DNA of 64,000 nt from Luteibacter rhizovicinus (GTDB lineage Bacteria > Pseudomonadota > Gammaproteobacteria > Xanthomonadales > Rhodanobacteraceae), in contig NZ_SMCS01000002.1 in assembly GCF_004342265.1 (NCBI RefSeq), forward strand, positions 868,001 through 932,000, given 5' to 3'. This document shows, piece after piece, positions 24,958 to 57,993 of this stretch. Position 1 is the first letter of the stretch; each line of letters starts with the position of its first letter. The notes under the pieces were generated by a model, which saw nothing but the letters and a program-made list of their open reading frames with translations, was not told the DNA's origin and made no database searches. The translations under genes were made by a program, and so were the position numbers.

Positions 24958-26142
24958 TCAGTTCACCGGGCCGCCTGGCAACCGGAAGGTAAAGGAGGTC
25001 TGCTTCGTATCGGACAAGCCGACGAGCGTGCCGCCGTGCGCACGCGCGATCTCGGAAGCAATGTACAGACCCAGGCCCAGACCCGGCTTGGGTTGGCCGG
25101 ACCCCACACGAGAAAACGGCTGGAAAATCCGCGCCATCGTGTGGGATGGAATCGGCTGACCACCGTTGGATACGGTCAGGTGAAAAACCCCCTGCATCGA
25201 GCCGGCTTCGACGACCACGGGCAGCTCGCGGTCGCCATGCGACATCGCGTTGTTGAGCAGATTGGCCAGCAACTGCGCCACGCGTCGCGGATCGCAGGTC
25301 ACCGGACGCTCGATGGCGATGCGAACGTCGAGCGCACGCGCCGGGTGAGTGGTACGAACCTCTTCGATCACCTGCCGCATATCGTCCGCGAGGCTGTCGC
25401 AAGCCCGCAGCGCGAGTGGAATACCCCCGCCCAGACGGCCGCGGGCAAAATCCAGAACATTGTCGATGAGGTCCGACATGCGGTCGCAACTGCGACGCAT
25501 GAGGCCAACCGTACGACGCATGCGCGCATCCAGGGGCATCGCTTCCAGCGACTCCGCACCCAGCCGGATCGCATGCAACGGACTGCGCAGGTCGTGTCCC
25601 ACCACGGCGATGAACTGCTCGCGCAGGGTCGCCACGGCATGGGCATCGGCAAGTGCGCTGTCGCTGGCTTCCAGACGGTCTTCCAGATCCAGCTGGGCAC
25701 CGATCAGCTGGGCCAGCAACGTAAGCGTCTTCAGGATATTCGGATCGTCGAGCGGGGCCGGCAGGGGATCGAGCGCGCACAGCGTGCCGAAGAAACTGCC
25801 GTCCGTGCGAATGATGGGAATTGAGACGTAGCTCTCGAATCCATACATCTTCGGTGTCGGATGACCGGCGAACTGGGGCGTCGCGCTCGCGTGACCGAAG
25901 ATGACCGGCTGGTGGTGCTGGCGTATCTCGTTGCAGATCGTGGACTCGAGCCCGAGCTCGCCACCTGGCTTCAGTCCGAAATCGATGCCATCCCGCACGG
26001 CGCAAGCTACCCAGGAGTAGTCGGTGACGCGAGCCACCGCGGCAAAACGCATACCTGTCGTATGTGTAACGACTTCGAGAATCGTCGGCACTGCGGCTAT
26101 GCGCGCAATCGCGTCGATGTCCCGCGCTATACCCGGCTCCAT
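24958..26142 (-). CDS. Sensor histidine kinase with N-terminal GAF domain
   Basis: A 394-residue cytoplasmic kinase with no membrane segment. A GAF domain covers about residues 20-155 (HTTGMRFAAVARVTDYSW, ESYVSIPIIRTDGSFFGTLC). A HisKA domain follows with phospho-accepting His183 (VVGHDLRSPLHAIR), then a HATPase with LLANLLNNAMSHG (N box) and GLGLGLYIASEIARAHGG (G2 box). ATG 26142 is preferred to a GTG at 26202. Proteins of this make-up often sense redox or light, but no chromophore or haem ligand stands out. It is divergent from the HWE kinase at 26310, and neither has an adjacent response regulator. Confidence 0.9.
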   Translation of the reverse strand: MEPGIARDIDAIARIAAVPTILEVVTHTTGMRFAAVARVTDYSWVACAVRDGIDFGLKPGGELGLESTICNEIRQHHQPVIFGHASATPQFAGHPTPKMYGFESYVSIPIIRTDGSFFGTLCALDPLPAPLDDPNILKTLTLLAQLIGAQLDLEDRLEASDSALADAHAVATLREQFIAVVGHDLRSPLHAIRLGAESLEAMPLDARMRRTVGLMRRSCDRMSDLIDNVLDFARGRLGGGIPLALRACDSLADDMRQVIEEVRTTHPARALDVRIAIERPVTCDPRRVAQLLANLLNNAMSHGDRELPVVVEAGSMQGVFHLTVSNGGQPIPSHTMARIFQPFSRVGSGQPKPGLGLGLYIASEIARAHGGTLVGLSDTKQTSFTFRLPGGPVN

Positions 26143-26309
26143 GACCCTGGATTCACCCCTTTTCGATGGGCGCCAGCATACCGGTTTGGTGGACCATGTC
26201 ACGGTGTCGCAATGATCGCGTTATTCGTCGTGCACGGGCCACGTAGGGGCGCTAGGATAGAACTCCGGCGCCCGCTACGGATGCGGGGCGACCCTGGAAG
26301 GGTGAATCG

Positions 26310-27338
26310 ATGACCGAAGATACCGCCAGTCCCATATTGCGGGCCGCTGAAATGGGCGATCGCGAATTCCGCGAACTGGCCGATTTCGCGCCGGTAATGA
26401 TCTGGCGCTCCGGGCCGGACAAATTGTGCGACTGGTTCAATCTTTCCTGGCTGGCATTCACCGGACGGTCCATGGCATCCGAACTCGGTTTCGGGTGGGC
26501 GGACGGGGTCCATCCCGACGACCTGGAGCGCTGCGTCGAAATCTATACCAACGCGTTCGACGCACGTCAGCCGTTCTCCATGGAATATCGCCTGCACCGT
26601 GCCGATGGGGAGTTCGTCTGGCTGCTGGACAACGGCGCGCCTTTTTATCGCGATGGCGCGTTCGCCGGCTACATGGGTAGTTGCGTGGACGTGACAGGTC
26701 ACCGCGAGGCGCAACGTGCGCAGCGCATCCTGATCAACGAACTGAACCACCGGGTGAAGAACACCCTGGCCATCGTCCAGGCGATGGCGAACCAGACCTT
26801 CCACGGCGAGCGCACGACGGCGGAATCGCTGGCCATTTTCGACGCGCGCGTCCGGTCGCTGGCCAGCGCGCACGACCTGCTGGTATCGAAAGCATGGAAC
26901 GACGTGCCGTTGCGCCGGATTATCGAGTCGGCCGTCGCGCCCCACGACCCCGGCAACGATCGCATCTTCGCCGACGGGCCGAACCTGATGCTCCGTCCCG
27001 AAACCGCCGTCTCCGTCGCCATGGCCGTCCATGAGCTGTTCACCAACGCGGCGAAATACGGTGCGCTGTCCAACAGCGCGGGAACGGTCACGATGCTCTG
27101 GACCATCGACGATACCCAGAATCCTCCCCGCCTGACCGTGAACTGGAAAGAGCATGGGGGCCCCGTCGTCGTCACGCCGGCCCAACGCGGTTTCGGTACG
27201 CGATTCATCGAACGCGTCCTGGCCGGTCAGGTCGGCGGCACCGCTGTCGTCACCTTCGCGAGCGACGGCCTCGAATGCACGTTCGAGGCTCCCATCCGTA
27301 CCGGGCGCCAGGATCGGAGCGAACGCCGCCGCGCCTGA
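26310..27338 (+). CDS. PAS-domain histidine kinase of the HWE/HisKA_2 type
   Basis: A 342-residue soluble kinase. A PAS domain (about 20-135: FREL-ADFAPVMIWRSG, GWADGVHPDDLERCVEIYTN, YRDGAFAGYMGSCVDVTGHR) precedes the HWE dimerisation helix ELNHRVKNTLAIVQAMANQT with phospho-acceptor His147. The ATPase region has HELFTNAAKYGALS and the WKEHGGP motif, which takes the place of the normal G1 box in HWE kinases. GGAAGGGTGA lies just before the ATG. Such kinases usually drive general stress or light responses through single-domain regulators, none of which is adjacent. It is divergent from the GAF kinase with a 167-base gap. Confidence 0.9.
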   Translation: MTEDTASPILRAAEMGDREFRELADFAPVMIWRSGPDKLCDWFNLSWLAFTGRSMASELGFGWADGVHPDDLERCVEIYTNAFDARQPFSMEYRLHRADGEFVWLLDNGAPFYRDGAFAGYMGSCVDVTGHREAQRAQRILINELNHRVKNTLAIVQAMANQTFHGERTTAESLAIFDARVRSLASAHDLLVSKAWNDVPLRRIIESAVAPHDPGNDRIFADGPNLMLRPETAVSVAMAVHELFTNAAKYGALSNSAGTVTMLWTIDDTQNPPRLTVNWKEHGGPVVVTPAQRGFGTRFIERVLAGQVGGTAVVTFASDGLECTFEAPIRTGRQDRSERRRA

Positions 27339-27474
27339 GTGCGCGCCATTCACCCACGTTGGCGCATCATCTCGTCCGGCGAGGGAAGCCGCACGCCGCT
27401 CGATCAATGCAACCCATTGATATAGATGACAAAGACAAGTCGGATTATCAGGGCAAAAATGTTTCGCTCCGATA

Positions 27475-27504
27475 TGTCGATTCCGGTCGCCGTTGTTCGA
27501 CGTC
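27475..27504 (+). promoter_or_regulatory. Candidate ECF42-type promoter for the DGPF operon
   Basis: TGTCGA (27475-27480) is followed after 17 bases by CGACGTC (27498-27504). This matches the -35 TGTCGA and -10 CGA/TC pattern that I recall for ECF42 sigma factors, and it sits 55-85 bases upstream of the first DGPF gene, as a promoter should. The sigma factor gene is the last gene of the same cluster. Confidence 0.6.
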
Positions 27505-27558
27505 ATCACAAGAGCGCGGGATTCCCCCGCTCGCGCAGCCTTATAAGGAGATACAAAC

Positions 27559-27975
27559 ATGCGTTTCATGGTGATAGTCAAAGCCAATGCGGACTCGGAA
27601 GCTGGCGTGATGCCGAGCCAGGATTTGCTGACCCGGATGGGTCACTACAACGAAGAACTGGTCAAGGCGGGTGTCCTGCTGGCCGCCGACGGCCTGCACC
27701 CCACGTCCCGCGGCGCCCGGGTGCGCTTTACCGGCAACCGGCGCGACGTCATCGACGGGCCCTTCAGCGAAACCAAGGAACTGATCGCTGGCTTCTGGAT
27801 GATCCAGGTCAGGTCGCTCGCCGAGGCCATCGAGTGGGTGAAGCGCGTTCCCATGGAGGATTCGGAAATCGAAATCCGCCAGGTCTTCGAAGCGGAAGAC
27901 TTCGGCGTCGAATTCACGCCCGAGGCCCGCGAGCAGGAAGAACGCATCCGCGCCCATCTCACCGCCAAGCACTAA
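27559..27975 (+). CDS. YciI-like DGPF-domain protein
   Basis: A 138-residue protein of the YCII/DGPF family: RFMVIVKANADSEAG at the start, GARVRFTGNRRDVIDGPFSE (the DGPF motif with its following ETKELIAGFW helix), and IEIRQVFEAEDFG at the end. Members form a ferredoxin-like dimer related to YciI, with a possible enzymatic His/Asp site, but their role is not established. AAGGAG precedes the start. It is the first gene of an ECF42 module (DGPF, VOC, double DGPF, sigma factor), all on the plus strand with short gaps. Confidence 0.92.
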   Translation: MRFMVIVKANADSEAGVMPSQDLLTRMGHYNEELVKAGVLLAADGLHPTSRGARVRFTGNRRDVIDGPFSETKELIAGFWMIQVRSLAEAIEWVKRVPMEDSEIEIRQVFEAEDFGVEFTPEAREQEERIRAHLTAKH

Positions 27976-28003
27976 TTCCCCCCACGTCAAGGATTCCCCG
28001 ATC

Positions 28004-28447
28004 ATGAAACTTCAGCCCTATCTGATCTTCAACGGTAATTGCGAAGAAGCATTCACGTTCTACGAAAAGGCGTTGGGCGGGAAGATCGCGATGATCTCGC
28101 GATTCAAGGAGATGCCGGCATCGCCGGAGCCCAGTAGCGGCGAGGGCTGCGGTCCCGGCGAGATCCCGGCGAACTGGGGCGACAAGCTGATGCACATCCG
28201 GCTGGAAATCGGCGATCAGGTGCTGATGGGTTCGGACAGCCATCCGGCCTATCCGTACAACGGCATCCACGGATGCAATCTGGCCGTTGTCTTCGACGAT
28301 GTGGCTCAGGCCGAGCGTGCGTTCAAGACCCTGAGCGAAGGCGGTCAGGTTACGATGCCTTTCGCACCGACCTTCTGGGCCAAGGGCTTCGGCATGTGTA
28401 TCGACAAATTCGGTGCGCCGTGGATGATCAACGGTCCCCAGATCTGA
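28004..28447 (+). CDS. VOC-family protein, PhnB-like
   Basis: A 147-residue PhnB-type VOC protein: MKLQPYLIFNGNCEEAFTFY, with the EKALGGKIAMISRFKEMPAS insertion, VLMGSDSHPAY, VFDDVAQAERAFKTLSEGGQ and the typical end FGMCIDKFGAPWMINGP. PhnB itself is structurally a VOC protein without proven activity. It lies 28 bases after the first DGPF gene and ten before the double-DGPF gene, so it is in the same operon. Its partnership with DGPF proteins and an ECF42 sigma factor recurs in many genomes. Confidence 0.92.
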   Translation: MKLQPYLIFNGNCEEAFTFYEKALGGKIAMISRFKEMPASPEPSSGEGCGPGEIPANWGDKLMHIRLEIGDQVLMGSDSHPAYPYNGIHGCNLAVVFDDVAQAERAFKTLSEGGQVTMPFAPTFWAKGFGMCIDKFGAPWMINGPQI

Positions 28448-28457
28448 AGGAGTGGCC

Positions 28458-29228
28458 ATGCGATTCCTGATCGTCCGTAAAGCGGACAACGACACAGAAG
28501 CCGGCATGCCGCCCAGCCAGGAATTGCTGGAGGATATGGCGCAATACATCGATACGCTCGCCGCGGAAGGCCGTCTGCATACAGGCGAAGGACTGAAGCC
28601 CAGTTCGCAGGGCGTCCGGGTCACCTTCGCCAACGGTCAGGCCACGGTCGTCGACGGACCGTTCGCGGAAACCAAGGAACTGGTGGCGGGCCTCAGCATC
28701 ATCGAAGCGGAGTCCCTGGACGACGCCGTGGATTGGGTGCGCGGCTGGCCCACTATCGACGGCCATGGCGAGGTCTGCCTCGATATCCGTTCGATGGGTT
28801 GCCCCGGCGGTCTTCCGGGGTTCTCGAATCCCGACAACGACGACGAGGCGACGAAACCCCGCTTCGCCGTGCTGCTGAAGTCCGACGACGATGCCGAACG
28901 CGATGTCGATCCGGGTCCGGTGGTGCTCGGCGCGATGGCCGATGGCATCCGGGCGGGTATCGAGGCTGGCTTTCTGCTTGCCGGCGAAGGCCTGCGTTCG
29001 AGCGCCAGCGCGAAGCGCGTACGGTTCAGCGGCGGCAAACCCGAGGTCATCGACGGACCGTTCGCCGAGGTGAAGGAGCTGGTCGCCGGTTACTGGATTC
29101 TGCGCATGGCCTCCATCGACGATGTCATCGAATGGGTGAAGGGTTATCCGTTCCCGAACCGCCATTCGGCCCGGGTGGAAATCCGTCAGCTTTACGAGGT
29201 TTCCGAGCTGGTATCGGCGGCGACCTGA
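28458..29228 (+). CDS. Tandem DGPF (YCII) protein
   Basis: A 256-residue protein made of two DGPF/YCII domains in a row. The first (1-117) carries FANGQATVVDGPFAETKELV, the second (about 135-250) carries FSGGKPEVIDGPFAEVKELV. The two halves match each other and the separate DGPF gene upstream, so this is an internal duplication that replaces the usual homodimer by a single chain. The start ATG 28458 has AAGGAG eight bases upstream. A REP hairpin follows the stop codon and separates it from the sigma factor gene. Confidence 0.92.
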   Translation: MRFLIVRKADNDTEAGMPPSQELLEDMAQYIDTLAAEGRLHTGEGLKPSSQGVRVTFANGQATVVDGPFAETKELVAGLSIIEAESLDDAVDWVRGWPTIDGHGEVCLDIRSMGCPGGLPGFSNPDNDDEATKPRFAVLLKSDDDAERDVDPGPVVLGAMADGIRAGIEAGFLLAGEGLRSSASAKRVRFSGGKPEVIDGPFAEVKELVAGYWILRMASIDDVIEWVKGYPFPNRHSARVEIRQLYEVSELVSAAT

Positions 29229-29249
29229 CTGGCTTGTTGTCCGGGATTG

Positions 29250-29277
29250 TGTAGGAGCGCTCAAGAGCGCTCCTACA
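29250..29277. repeat. REP palindrome (TGTAGGAGCGCTC family)
   Basis: TGTAGGAGCGCTC-aa-GAGCGCTCCTACA, a perfect 13-bp stem with a two-base loop. The same 28-bp element, with TT in the loop, occurs at 57966-57993, and a diverged pair forms the REPIN at 47732. It lies between the double-DGPF gene and the sigma factor gene and may also act as a terminator or RNA stabiliser. Confidence 0.8.
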
Positions 29278-29347
29278 ACGTAAACGCATGGATATTGCCG
29301 CACCGTGCCTTGCGCAACCGGTGGAGGCGGTGGTGTGATCGGTGGCT

Positions 29348-30619
29348 ATGACCGCTACCGAAACCCACCGTGCCATCGATGCGATCTGGAAGATCGAATC
29401 GCCACGTCTTATCGCCGGCATCGCCCGCCTCGTACGCGATGTCGGGTTAGCCGAGGAGCTGGCGCAGGATGCGCTGGTCGCCGCGCTGGAAAACTGGCCC
29501 AGAGCCGGCGTGCCGGACAATCCGGGCGCATGGCTGATGGCCACCGCGAAGCATCGCGCGATCGATCGCATCCGCCGCGAGCGCATGGCCGGCCGCAAGG
29601 TCGAGGCCCTCGCGTACGACGTGGAAACGTTGGCCGAGTCGGAAAACGACGCGCTGATCGACTCGATCGACGACGACATAGGCGACGACCTGTTGCGCCT
29701 GATCTTCGTTGCCTGCCATCCCGTGCTTTCGCTCGACGCGCAACTGGCGCTGACACTGCGCCTGCTGGGCGGCCTGACGACGGAGGAGATTGCCCGCGCG
29801 TTCCTCGTGCCCGAACCGACGATCGCCCAGCGGATCGTGCGCGCCAAGCGGACCCTGGCCGACGCGGGCGTGCCGTTCGAAGTGCCTCGTGGCGACGAAT
29901 TGCAGGCGCGGCTCGCTTCCGTACTCAAGGTCGTCTATCTCATCTTCAACGAAGGCTATACCGCGACCGCGGGTGGCGACTGGATGCGCCCCACCCTGTG
30001 CGAGGACGCACTGCGCCTTGGCCGCGTGCTGGTCGGGCTGATGCCGCACGAGCCTGAAGTGCACGGCCTGGTCGCCCTGCTGGAAATTCAGGCGTCGCGC
30101 GCCGGTGCGCGACTGGGACCGGCCGGCGAACCGATCCTGCTTCTTGACCAGGATCGCGCACGCTGGGACCGACTGCTGATCCGTCGCGGCCTGGCGGCGC
30201 TGGAACTGGCCGAGCGGCTGCGCGATGCGCGCGGCCCGTATACGTTGCAGGCCGCCATCGCGGCATGTCACGCGCGTGCGCTGGTCGCCGAACAGACGGA
30301 CTGGACGCGCATCGCGTCGCTCTATGCCGAACTCATGGCGTTGAACCCGTCGCCCATCGTGGAGCTGAATCGCGCCGTGGCCGTGTCGATGGCCGCCGGT
30401 CCGGACGCGGGACTCGCCATCGTCGACACGTTGCTGGACGAGCCTTCGCTAAAGAACTACCACCTGCTGCCCAGCGTACGCGGCGATTTCCTGTTCCGGC
30501 TGGGTCGCCTGGACGAAGCCCGGCAGGAATTCGAACGGGCCGGCAGTCTTGCGCGCAATGCACGCGAACAGGCGTTGCTGGCGGCGCGTGCGGAGGCGTG
30601 TTCGCGCGGTGCGGCGTAA
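29348..30619 (+). CDS. ECF42-type RNA polymerase sigma factor with TPR-like extension
   Basis: A 423-residue sigma-70 family protein. Region 2 (IARLVRDVGLAEELAQDALV, PGAWLMATAKHRAIDRIRRE) and region 4 (LTLRLLGGLTTEEIARAFLV, PTIAQRIVRAKRTL) occupy the first 190 residues. A helical C-terminal extension of about 230 residues (LIFNEGYTATAGG, LRRGLAALELAERL-like, NPSPIVELNRAVAVSMAAGP) is the ECF42 hallmark (DUF6596/TPR-like) and is thought to control activity in place of an anti-sigma factor. No anti-sigma gene is present. It closes the DGPF-VOC-DGPF cluster, the conserved ECF42 setting. ATG 29348 is preferred; a GTG two codons earlier is possible. Confidence 0.94.
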   Translation: MTATETHRAIDAIWKIESPRLIAGIARLVRDVGLAEELAQDALVAALENWPRAGVPDNPGAWLMATAKHRAIDRIRRERMAGRKVEALAYDVETLAESENDALIDSIDDDIGDDLLRLIFVACHPVLSLDAQLALTLRLLGGLTTEEIARAFLVPEPTIAQRIVRAKRTLADAGVPFEVPRGDELQARLASVLKVVYLIFNEGYTATAGGDWMRPTLCEDALRLGRVLVGLMPHEPEVHGLVALLEIQASRAGARLGPAGEPILLLDQDRARWDRLLIRRGLAALELAERLRDARGPYTLQAAIAACHARALVAEQTDWTRIASLYAELMALNPSPIVELNRAVAVSMAAGPDAGLAIVDTLLDEPSLKNYHLLPSVRGDFLFRLGRLDEARQEFERAGSLARNAREQALLAARAEACSRGAA

Positions 30620-30643
30620 ACTTCGCGAATGAACATCGGACGA

Positions 30644-31123
30644 TTAATGACGGACTTCGAACTCGACGTCCGTACCGTCCGACAGGCCCTGAATCGCTTC
30701 GATCAATTCGCCGGTTTCGCTGAAGTGCTCGATGGCGGGTACGGGCCGCATGTTGTGCGGCTCGTAGACGCCATCGGCGAACACCGGCAACGTGACATAG
30801 GTGTAACACTCGCCGGGACGCAGAACCTTGCCTTCGTCGCGCAGTGCTTCGATCAGCAGCGGTAGCAACCAGTCGTCCTGTACGTCCTTGCCGCGCAGCA
30901 GTTCGTTGAATTCCGGCACGGTCTCCGCGACCTTGTCGTTCTCGCCGGTGCCCGTATTGAGCCAGTACACGCCGCCCTCGTCCGCTTCGTAGAACATATC
31001 GCCCAGGGCCGTGAACAGCAGCGGTGTAAACGCGATGCCAACGCGCCATTCCCAGGCCTTCGCAAGGGCTTCGATAGCCTCGGCGTCGGGCTTGCAGATG
31101 AGATCGTCCCAGGTGAGGGCCAT
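30644..31123 (-). CDS. Tdi1-type (DUF1851) immunity-like protein
   Basis: A 159-residue cytosolic protein. The N-terminal WDDLICKPDAEAIEALAKAWEW-like start, the central GDMFYEADEGGVYWLNTGTG and the C-terminal RPGECYTYVTLPVFADGVYE followed by HFSETGELIEAIQGLSDGTD fit the GAD-like/DUF1851 family called T6SS immunity protein Tdi1. Tdi1 protects against the type VI DNase Tde1. No effector or type VI gene lies nearby, so this is an orphan whose real role is open. AGGAA precedes the ATG at 31123. It is convergent with the sigma factor gene, 24 bases away. Confidence 0.75.
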   Translation of the reverse strand: MALTWDDLICKPDAEAIEALAKAWEWRVGIAFTPLLFTALGDMFYEADEGGVYWLNTGTGENDKVAETVPEFNELLRGKDVQDDWLLPLLIEALRDEGKVLRPGECYTYVTLPVFADGVYEPHNMRPVPAIEHFSETGELIEAIQGLSDGTDVEFEVRH

Positions 31124-31149
31124 GGCGGGTTCCTGCGTTCGTCGGGCGT

Positions 31150-57965: not shown

Positions 57966-57993
57966 TGTAGGAGCGCTCTTGAGCGCTCCTACA
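57966..57993. repeat. REP palindrome (TGTAGGAGCGCTC family)
   Basis: TGTAGGAGCGCTC-tt-GAGCGCTCCTACA, identical in its 13-base arms to the element at 29250-29277. It lies between the divergently placed serine hydrolase promoter and the LysR gene end. Confidence 0.8.

Follow-up and report, generated by a model that had tools for sequence, protein, structure and literature searches.

A predicted dispersed ECF42-type regulon and a promoter-like element at the sigma gene of a DGPF-VOC module in Luteibacter rhizovicinus

We analyzed a 64,000-nucleotide stretch of the Luteibacter rhizovicinus genome (the window; contig NZ_SMCS01000002.1, positions 868,001 to 932,000), in which a YCII-related protein with the DGPF motif (DGPF1), a VOC family protein, a protein with two YCII domains (double-DGPF) and a sigma factor of the ECF42 group are encoded one after the other. 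A candidate ECF42-type promoter (P1) stands at the head of this cluster. In the genome sequences compared, motifs of the same type also precede a number of unlinked genes for small soluble enzymes and transporters, whereas relatives without the sigma factor have almost none. A second, promoter-like element (P2) lies just before the start of the sigma gene. We propose, with a probability of about two in three, that a stock of sigma factor made from P2 and gated by a C-terminal extension of the tetratricopeptide repeat (TPR) type activates P1 jointly with the dispersed promoters.

P2 would in this case act as a weak housekeeping-type (extended -10) promoter that gives rise to a sigma mRNA with little or no leader, and its transcription would keep a low standing stock of sigma factor. 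The TPR extension would decide whether this stock is active, through contact with a partner, perhaps one of the DGPF proteins encoded in the same operon. Active sigma factor would then fire P1 as well as the promoters predicted before genes for MFS and GFA-like, GST and DUF899, DUF1428, VOC/PhnB and possibly RibD_C proteins. Transcripts that read through from P1 may contribute some further sigma factor, and a strong feedback loop is not likely, because the sigma gene lacks a ribosome-binding site.

P1 and the dispersed ECF42-type sites

A sequence-only reading of this DNA had placed TGTCGA-N17-CGACGTC 55 to 85 bases before the first gene, and the motif was recovered there: P1 (TGTCGATTCCGGTCGCCGTTGTTCGACGTC) lies 84 to 55 bases upstream of the first ATG. 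The pattern TGTCGAT-N14..18-CGACGTC matches once in the window and not at all in 100 dinucleotide shuffles. Using a matrix built on 61 sites taken from 58 loci of the family, with the window left out, P1 scored 30.2 bits, as compared to 5.0 bits for the next best place in the 64 kb on either strand. The site has the form TGTCG(A/G)-N17-CG(A/T)C of target promoters of the ECF42 group.

For comparison we used 141 ECF42 loci. Besides the window, these comprise 60 from the same family, Rhodanobacteraceae (the top-scoring loci and some with lower scores), and the 80 best-scoring ones of named genomes. Two loci occur in both sets (L064 = L165, Frateuria sp. Soil773; L072 = L182, a Dokdonella metagenome-assembled genome) and are identical in the sigma region, leaving 139 distinct loci. 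TGTCGR-N17-CGWC was found within 3 kb upstream, on the strand of the sigma gene, in 114 of the 139 (115 of 141 before merging), and on the opposite strand in 2 of 141. Other spacers from 10 to 24 gave between 0 and 28 of 141 loci; the peak of 28 at spacer 20 is ascribed to repeated CGWCGWC. Within the family, 58 of 59 loci (L140-L198) hold a P1-type site no more than 3 kb before the sigma gene. From its conserved position and spacing, and from the way such sites occur together with the sigma gene in the genomes compared, P1 is by sequence an ECF42-type promoter; we infer the promoter function of both P1 and P2 from conservation.

At the operon head, CGWC reads CGAC in the genus of the window and mostly CGTC in other genera. 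The choice between A and T was considered as a genus-bound feature and rejected, as targets within the window's genome carry both. In L189 (genome G016), a single cluster contains two ECF42-type sites, one before the DGPF gene and one before the VOC gene, and the sigma gene has no P2.

A genome-wide scan for further TGTCGA-N17-CGA sites had been suggested by the sequence-only reading, and scanning predicts a dispersed regulon. In the window's genome the loose form TGTCGR-N17-CGWC yielded 76 matches, as compared to 24 for a reversed control pattern, which is too many to be useful and unconvincing alone. The tight pattern TGTCGAT-N14-TTCGWC was searched in 197 genomes of the family, where ECF42 was scored as present if the best protein match had E < 1e-20 (153 genomes with, 44 without). 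The 153 genomes with ECF42 hold 661 tight sites (mean 4.3), and the 44 genomes without hold 5. In all 13 genera represented by genomes with ECF42 (113) as well as without it (42), the mean number of sites is higher where ECF42 is present. When the labels were shuffled within genera over 20,000 rounds, the ECF42-less genomes never held 5 sites or fewer (minimum 36; P ≤ 5e-5). Matches to the reversed tight pattern, by our count, amounted to 10 in the 197 genomes.

We inspected the genes behind 107 tight sites, namely 72 from four other genera (among the matches listed), 31 from the same genus, in part from genomes outside the 197-genome search, and 4 from the window's own genome. Five of them are operon heads (three identified by script, those of L348 and L293 by coordinates), leaving 102 unlinked sites. 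Target proteins were clustered by phmmer, and the named clusters were assigned by running Pfam on between one and four of their proteins. The next gene encodes a VOC/PhnB protein at 24 sites, GST at 20, YCII at 15, DUF1428 at 12 and AHSA1 at 8, so that these five families account for 79 of the 102. Smaller classes are YceI (4), RibD_C (2), RND adaptor (2) and an exported family without a Pfam match (2); the remainder consists of 10 singletons, including OEP, MFS, DUF1801 and DoxX, and 3 sites without a gene in place. The median site starts 77 bases before the start codon, the choice of start being guided in part by the presence of a Shine-Dalgarno (SD) sequence. For the same reason, the SD count of 87/104 for regulon genes is biased and was not used.

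In the window's own genome, the four other tight sites stand before an MFS transporter gene with a GFA-like gene behind it (C1:810249), a GST gene with a DUF899 gene behind it (C3:200565), a DUF1428 gene (C6:25104) and a VOC/PhnB gene (C6:80648). A weaker site (C13:31204) precedes a RibD_C gene, which is possibly a regulon member. Another weaker site (C1:578212) had no convincing gene in place by eye and was dropped. The genome has a single DUF6596 gene and thus one ECF42 sigma factor, so that one sigma factor would serve all of these sites. It has five YCII matches at four genes.

Of 33 genomes of the named loci, 30 have at least one tight site. Among 30 sites read in these genomes, 12 match the site of an ECF42 locus and 18 are unlinked; relatives of the family target set (E ≤ 1e-5) lie behind 8 of the 18, in genomes of other groups, two of them weakly. 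Behind one ECF42-type site we observed a family of about 250 amino acids with an apparent signal peptide and no Pfam match (L269:717-1460). By eye, relatives occur in L264, L271, L282, L285 and L295, with ECF42-type sites upstream in the same genus, and this exported family may belong to the regulon. Taken by their families, the predicted targets suggest a theme most like defence against reactive or foreign small molecules.

Some counts weigh against our reading. Six of the 153 genomes with ECF42 hold no tight site, and in two of these, G050 and G160, the best ECF42 match (7.7e-92 and 1.3e-93) is clearly weaker than in most genomes. Further, a spacer one base shorter (N16) gave 39 matches in 23 same-genus genomes, as compared to 34 tight sites in the 17 same-genus genomes with ECF42. 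Within this genus, therefore, little weight can be placed on spacing by itself, and the decisive control is the set of ECF42-less genomes. Six of the N16 matches lie in one repeat array, and several or many are alike between species, probably representing one coding site each. Together with the 76 loose matches, the N16 matches also speak for the view that the tight sites belong to another sigma factor or arise by chance in GC-rich DNA. We regard this as very improbable, given the scarcity of sites in ECF42-less genomes, the outcome of the within-genus permutation and the recurrence of five gene families behind the unlinked sites; none of the three sites among the 102 that come from ECF42-less genomes (G120, G143 and G191) precedes one of the named families.

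P2 and the question of feedback

P2 ends 8 nt before the ATG of the sigma gene at 29348 and 2 nt before an in-frame GTG at 29342, which is also open. The pattern, TTG(A/C/T) followed by a second block TGn-T.T.AT, precedes the start codon of the sigma gene in 59 of 61 family loci, with the hexamers 17 bp apart in 52 and 18 bp apart in 7 of them. The next ATG or GTG follows after 8 nt in 40 family loci and after 2 nt in 16 (GTG first, as in the window). On the reverse strand, the same place gave no match in 61 family loci and 80 named loci, and the background in random stretches was 0.77% in family loci and 0.17% in named loci. The pattern is also found in 25 of the 80 named loci, including Actinobacteria, Acidobacteria and a Planctomycetaceae metagenome-assembled genome. 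With a stricter pattern, the match at the window's sigma gene is the sole one in its genome, and 96 of the 122 matches listed from the 197 genomes lie at ECF42 starts.

The sigma start also differs from the starts of its operon partners. An SD-like 4-mer precedes the sigma gene in 0 of 61 family loci, as compared to 59 of 59 for DGPF1 and 44 of 46 for the VOC gene (from 60 loci, 1 and 14, respectively, were dropped because there was no hit or no ATG near the aligned start). The geometry of P2 fits a promoter that would start transcription at or just before the ATG, and a separate message with almost no leader is probably the source of the sigma factor. With such a second promoter, P1 activity should not serve as a measure of the sigma level.

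Further points on the unfavourable side concern P2 and the proposed role. The pattern is missing in 55 of the 80 named loci, and six of the 25 named loci that have it are already Rhodanobacteraceae. Among the strict matches listed, 26 of 122 lie away from ECF42. None of the 59 family matches has A at position 2 of the second hexamer, where G, C or T stands instead. Housekeeping -10 elements are not usually built in this way, which implies either a weak housekeeping promoter or another reading of P2. P2 may thus be another kind of element than a promoter. The detoxification theme, in turn, is drawn solely from family names.

One such reading takes P2 as an operator, an RNA signal or the promoter of another alternative sigma factor, which would place the sigma gene under a further regulator. 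The second hexamers TGTGAT, TGTCAT, TCTGAT and TTTGAT, all without A at position 2, agree with this, as do the conserved bases that follow the second hexamer (C87 G69 G92) and a strong hairpin over P2 in 15 of 16 same-genus relatives. We nevertheless think it rather unlikely, since two blocks 17-18 bp apart with a TGn close before a start codon have the geometry of a promoter, and since the pattern occurs in several phyla that, as far as we can infer, have no obvious shared regulator besides ECF42 and the housekeeping sigma factor. The hairpin, moreover, is absent from the window, and its mean z over 45 other loci is 0.25 (hairpins were scored against mononucleotide shuffles).

In the same-genus relatives (L140-L155), this hairpin is found about 45 nt ahead of the sigma gene and extends to the sigma ATG or close to it; its arms differ between species yet still pair. 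As it is absent from the window, a P2-overlapping hairpin was rejected as part of a general mechanism.

The sequence-only reading had predicted positive feedback through the operon: the sigma factor would be supplied mainly by read-through from P1, and nothing but the C-terminal extension would restrain the switch. In favour of this, P1 is a real site at the head of the collinear genes, P1-type sites precede the sigma gene in nearly all loci of the family, and a scan of 27300-30700 found no terminator-like site. Against this stand the conserved P2 at the sigma ATG, the lack of an SD-like sequence for the sigma gene in all 61 loci, an additional hairpin repeat in the gap between the double-DGPF and sigma genes, and L182, where P2 is present and no P1-type site precedes the sigma gene. 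Additionally, overproduction of the ECF42 sigma factor RpoE10 in Sinorhizobium meliloti caused no rise in SMc01151, which heads the operon of RpoE10 itself (PMC6180224), although the motif there overlaps the start site. Positive feedback is therefore doubtful, and we judge supply by read-through to be unlikely as the main route. Nor is the statement that the extension is the only visible control supported, in view of P2, the missing SD sequence and the hairpin repeat.

This repeat is a REP-like palindrome with a strong predicted fold that occurs at seven places in the genome. It lies in a gap of 119 nt, as compared to about 50-65 nt in 16 same-genus loci, and may reduce or reshape read-through. 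Two of the seven copies fall within the window, at 29251-29276 and 57967-57992 (GTAGGAGCGC...GCGCTCCTAC).

Returning to the reading with P2 as the source of the sigma factor, we considered its extension to much of the ECF42 group. There, the sigma factor would be made from a leaderless message of its own conserved promoter, uncoupled from the target operon, and would serve a scattered regulon of small detoxification-type enzymes and efflux components (VOC, GST, YCII, DUF1428, DUF899, AHSA1, YceI, RibD_C and MFS/RND). ECF42 would then act as a one-component response to xenobiotics or electrophiles rather than as a self-amplifying operon switch. We put this forward tentatively, at just short of even odds.

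The sigma factor extension and the module

The extension was examined with AlphaFold2 on 59 aligned ECF42 proteins. The model of the sigma factor has a mean pLDDT (predicted local distance difference test) of 86.3, with low confidence for residues 83-108, and residues 182-423 are predicted as all-helical with high confidence. The extension, which begins at about residue 182, matches DUF6596 (E 2.4e-34) and agrees with the TPR-rich C-terminal part of about 200 residues that marks the ECF42 group. The structural matches shown are TPR and related helical-repeat proteins, with a TPR domain as the best (7cc7; Z 15.6, root-mean-square deviation 3.6, 201 aligned residues) and 8chy also among them (E 2.4e-4). 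The match to 7cc7 supports the fold type only, since helical repeats reach such values easily. No sigma factor appeared in the rows shown, which is uninformative on the sigma domains as the TPR part fills the list; regions 2 and 4 are both detected by Pfam (E 4.5e-11 and 9e-9). According to two reviews (PMC8999054, PMC9023288), the extension is needed for the activity of ECF42 sigma factors, and another protein, perhaps the YCII neighbour, has been proposed to act on it.

No anti-sigma family was found by Pfam and NCBIfam, the only collections searched, in the four operon proteins, the two upstream and the one downstream; an anti-sigma factor of unknown kind would escape such a search.

Pfam domains bear out the collinear gene order that had been read from the sequence (Table 1), and by its gene content the cluster is an ordinary member of the ECF42 group. 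NCBIfam placed the sigma factor above the cut-off of sigma70-ECF (TIGR02937) and the VOC protein below that of YjdN. The YCII/DGPF neighbours comprise two genes with three domains, and the DGPF motif is visible in their translations. The only relative of DGPF1 with a solved structure at E ≤ 0.001 is PA1349 (1s7i). A counterpart of the double-DGPF gene, an open reading frame of similar length with the DGPF motif after the VOC gene, is present in 16 of 16 same-genus loci, with the motif counted once in L148.

Table 1. Features of the ECF42 module and of its neighbourhood in the window
Feature	Position	Strand	Assignment or remark
GAF-HisKA histidine kinase gene	24958-26202	-	divergent from the PAS-HWE kinase gene
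PAS-HWE histidine kinase gene	26310-27338	+	same strand as the module, ends 220 bases before DGPF1
P1, ECF42-type promoter (by sequence)	27475-27504	+	TGTCGA (27475-27480)-N17-CGAC (27498-27501), extended to CGACGTC
DGPF1, YCII-related protein, 138 amino acids	27559-27975	+	PF03795, E 2.7e-20
VOC / PhnB-like protein, 147 amino acids	28004-28447	+	PF00903, E 1.5e-12; PF06983, E 7.4e-9
Double-DGPF, two YCII domains in one chain	28458-29228	+	PF03795, two stretches, E 3.4e-30
REP-like palindrome	29251-29276	no strand	GTAGGAGCGCTCAAGAGCGCTCCTAC; in the additional stretch that separates the double-DGPF and sigma genes
P2, promoter-like element of the sigma gene	29310-29339	+	TTGCGC-N18-TGTGAT, TGG before the second hexamer
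ECF42 sigma factor, 423 amino acids	29348-30619	+	PF04542 (Sigma70_r2), PF08281 (Sigma70_r4_2), PF20239 (DUF6596)
Convergent gene behind sigma	30644-31126	-	PF08906, C-terminal domain of the type VI secretion system immunity protein Tdi1, E 9.7e-8

Comparison with known ECF42 systems

While the physiological role of ECF42/DGPF systems remains open, the strict promoter motif, together with the 44 natural sigma-less genomes as a control, provides a testable gene list for it. Beyond the known picture of the group, our analysis adds the predicted dispersed regulon and the probable second promoter; papers on ECF42 may mention either. A literature search aimed at ECF42 together with DGPF/YCII, the target families or the motif found nothing, with the ECF42 papers of 2018/2019, which may contain parts of it, lying outside its scope.

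ECF42 sigma factors of Streptomyces venezuelae reportedly use a promoter of the TGTCGA/CGWC type. As described in reviews, Sven_0747, Sven_4377 and Sven_7131 resemble the sigma factor described here in their long TPR-type C-terminal extension and in a conserved YCII neighbour. Compared with the S. venezuelae systems as portrayed in these reviews, the cluster in L. rhizovicinus also contains VOC and double-DGPF genes, and its predicted regulon reaches unlinked GST, DUF1428, DUF899, VOC and MFS genes.

In Pseudomonas putida, ECF-10 (PP4553) is listed as an ECF42 member in PMC8999054, and its mutant is described as forming more biofilm and having higher antibiotic resistance in PMC4613276. By analogy, this resistance phenotype fits the theme of chemical defence loosely.

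The S. meliloti system allows a comparison of the promoters themselves. From the sequences printed in PMC6180224, we read the start regions of SMb20475, SMc01149 and SMc01151 as TGTCGG-N17-CGTC. Two of the printed ECF42 promoters precede genes for a glyoxalase-like and a hydrophobic-ligand-binding protein (PMC6180224). SMc01151, which does not respond, has a motif that overlaps its start site, whereas the motif in the window lies 55-84 bases before the first gene. The likeness to RpoE10 extends to the glyoxalase-like genes among the responders at two loci and to the position of the sigma gene behind a YCII gene (PMC6180224).

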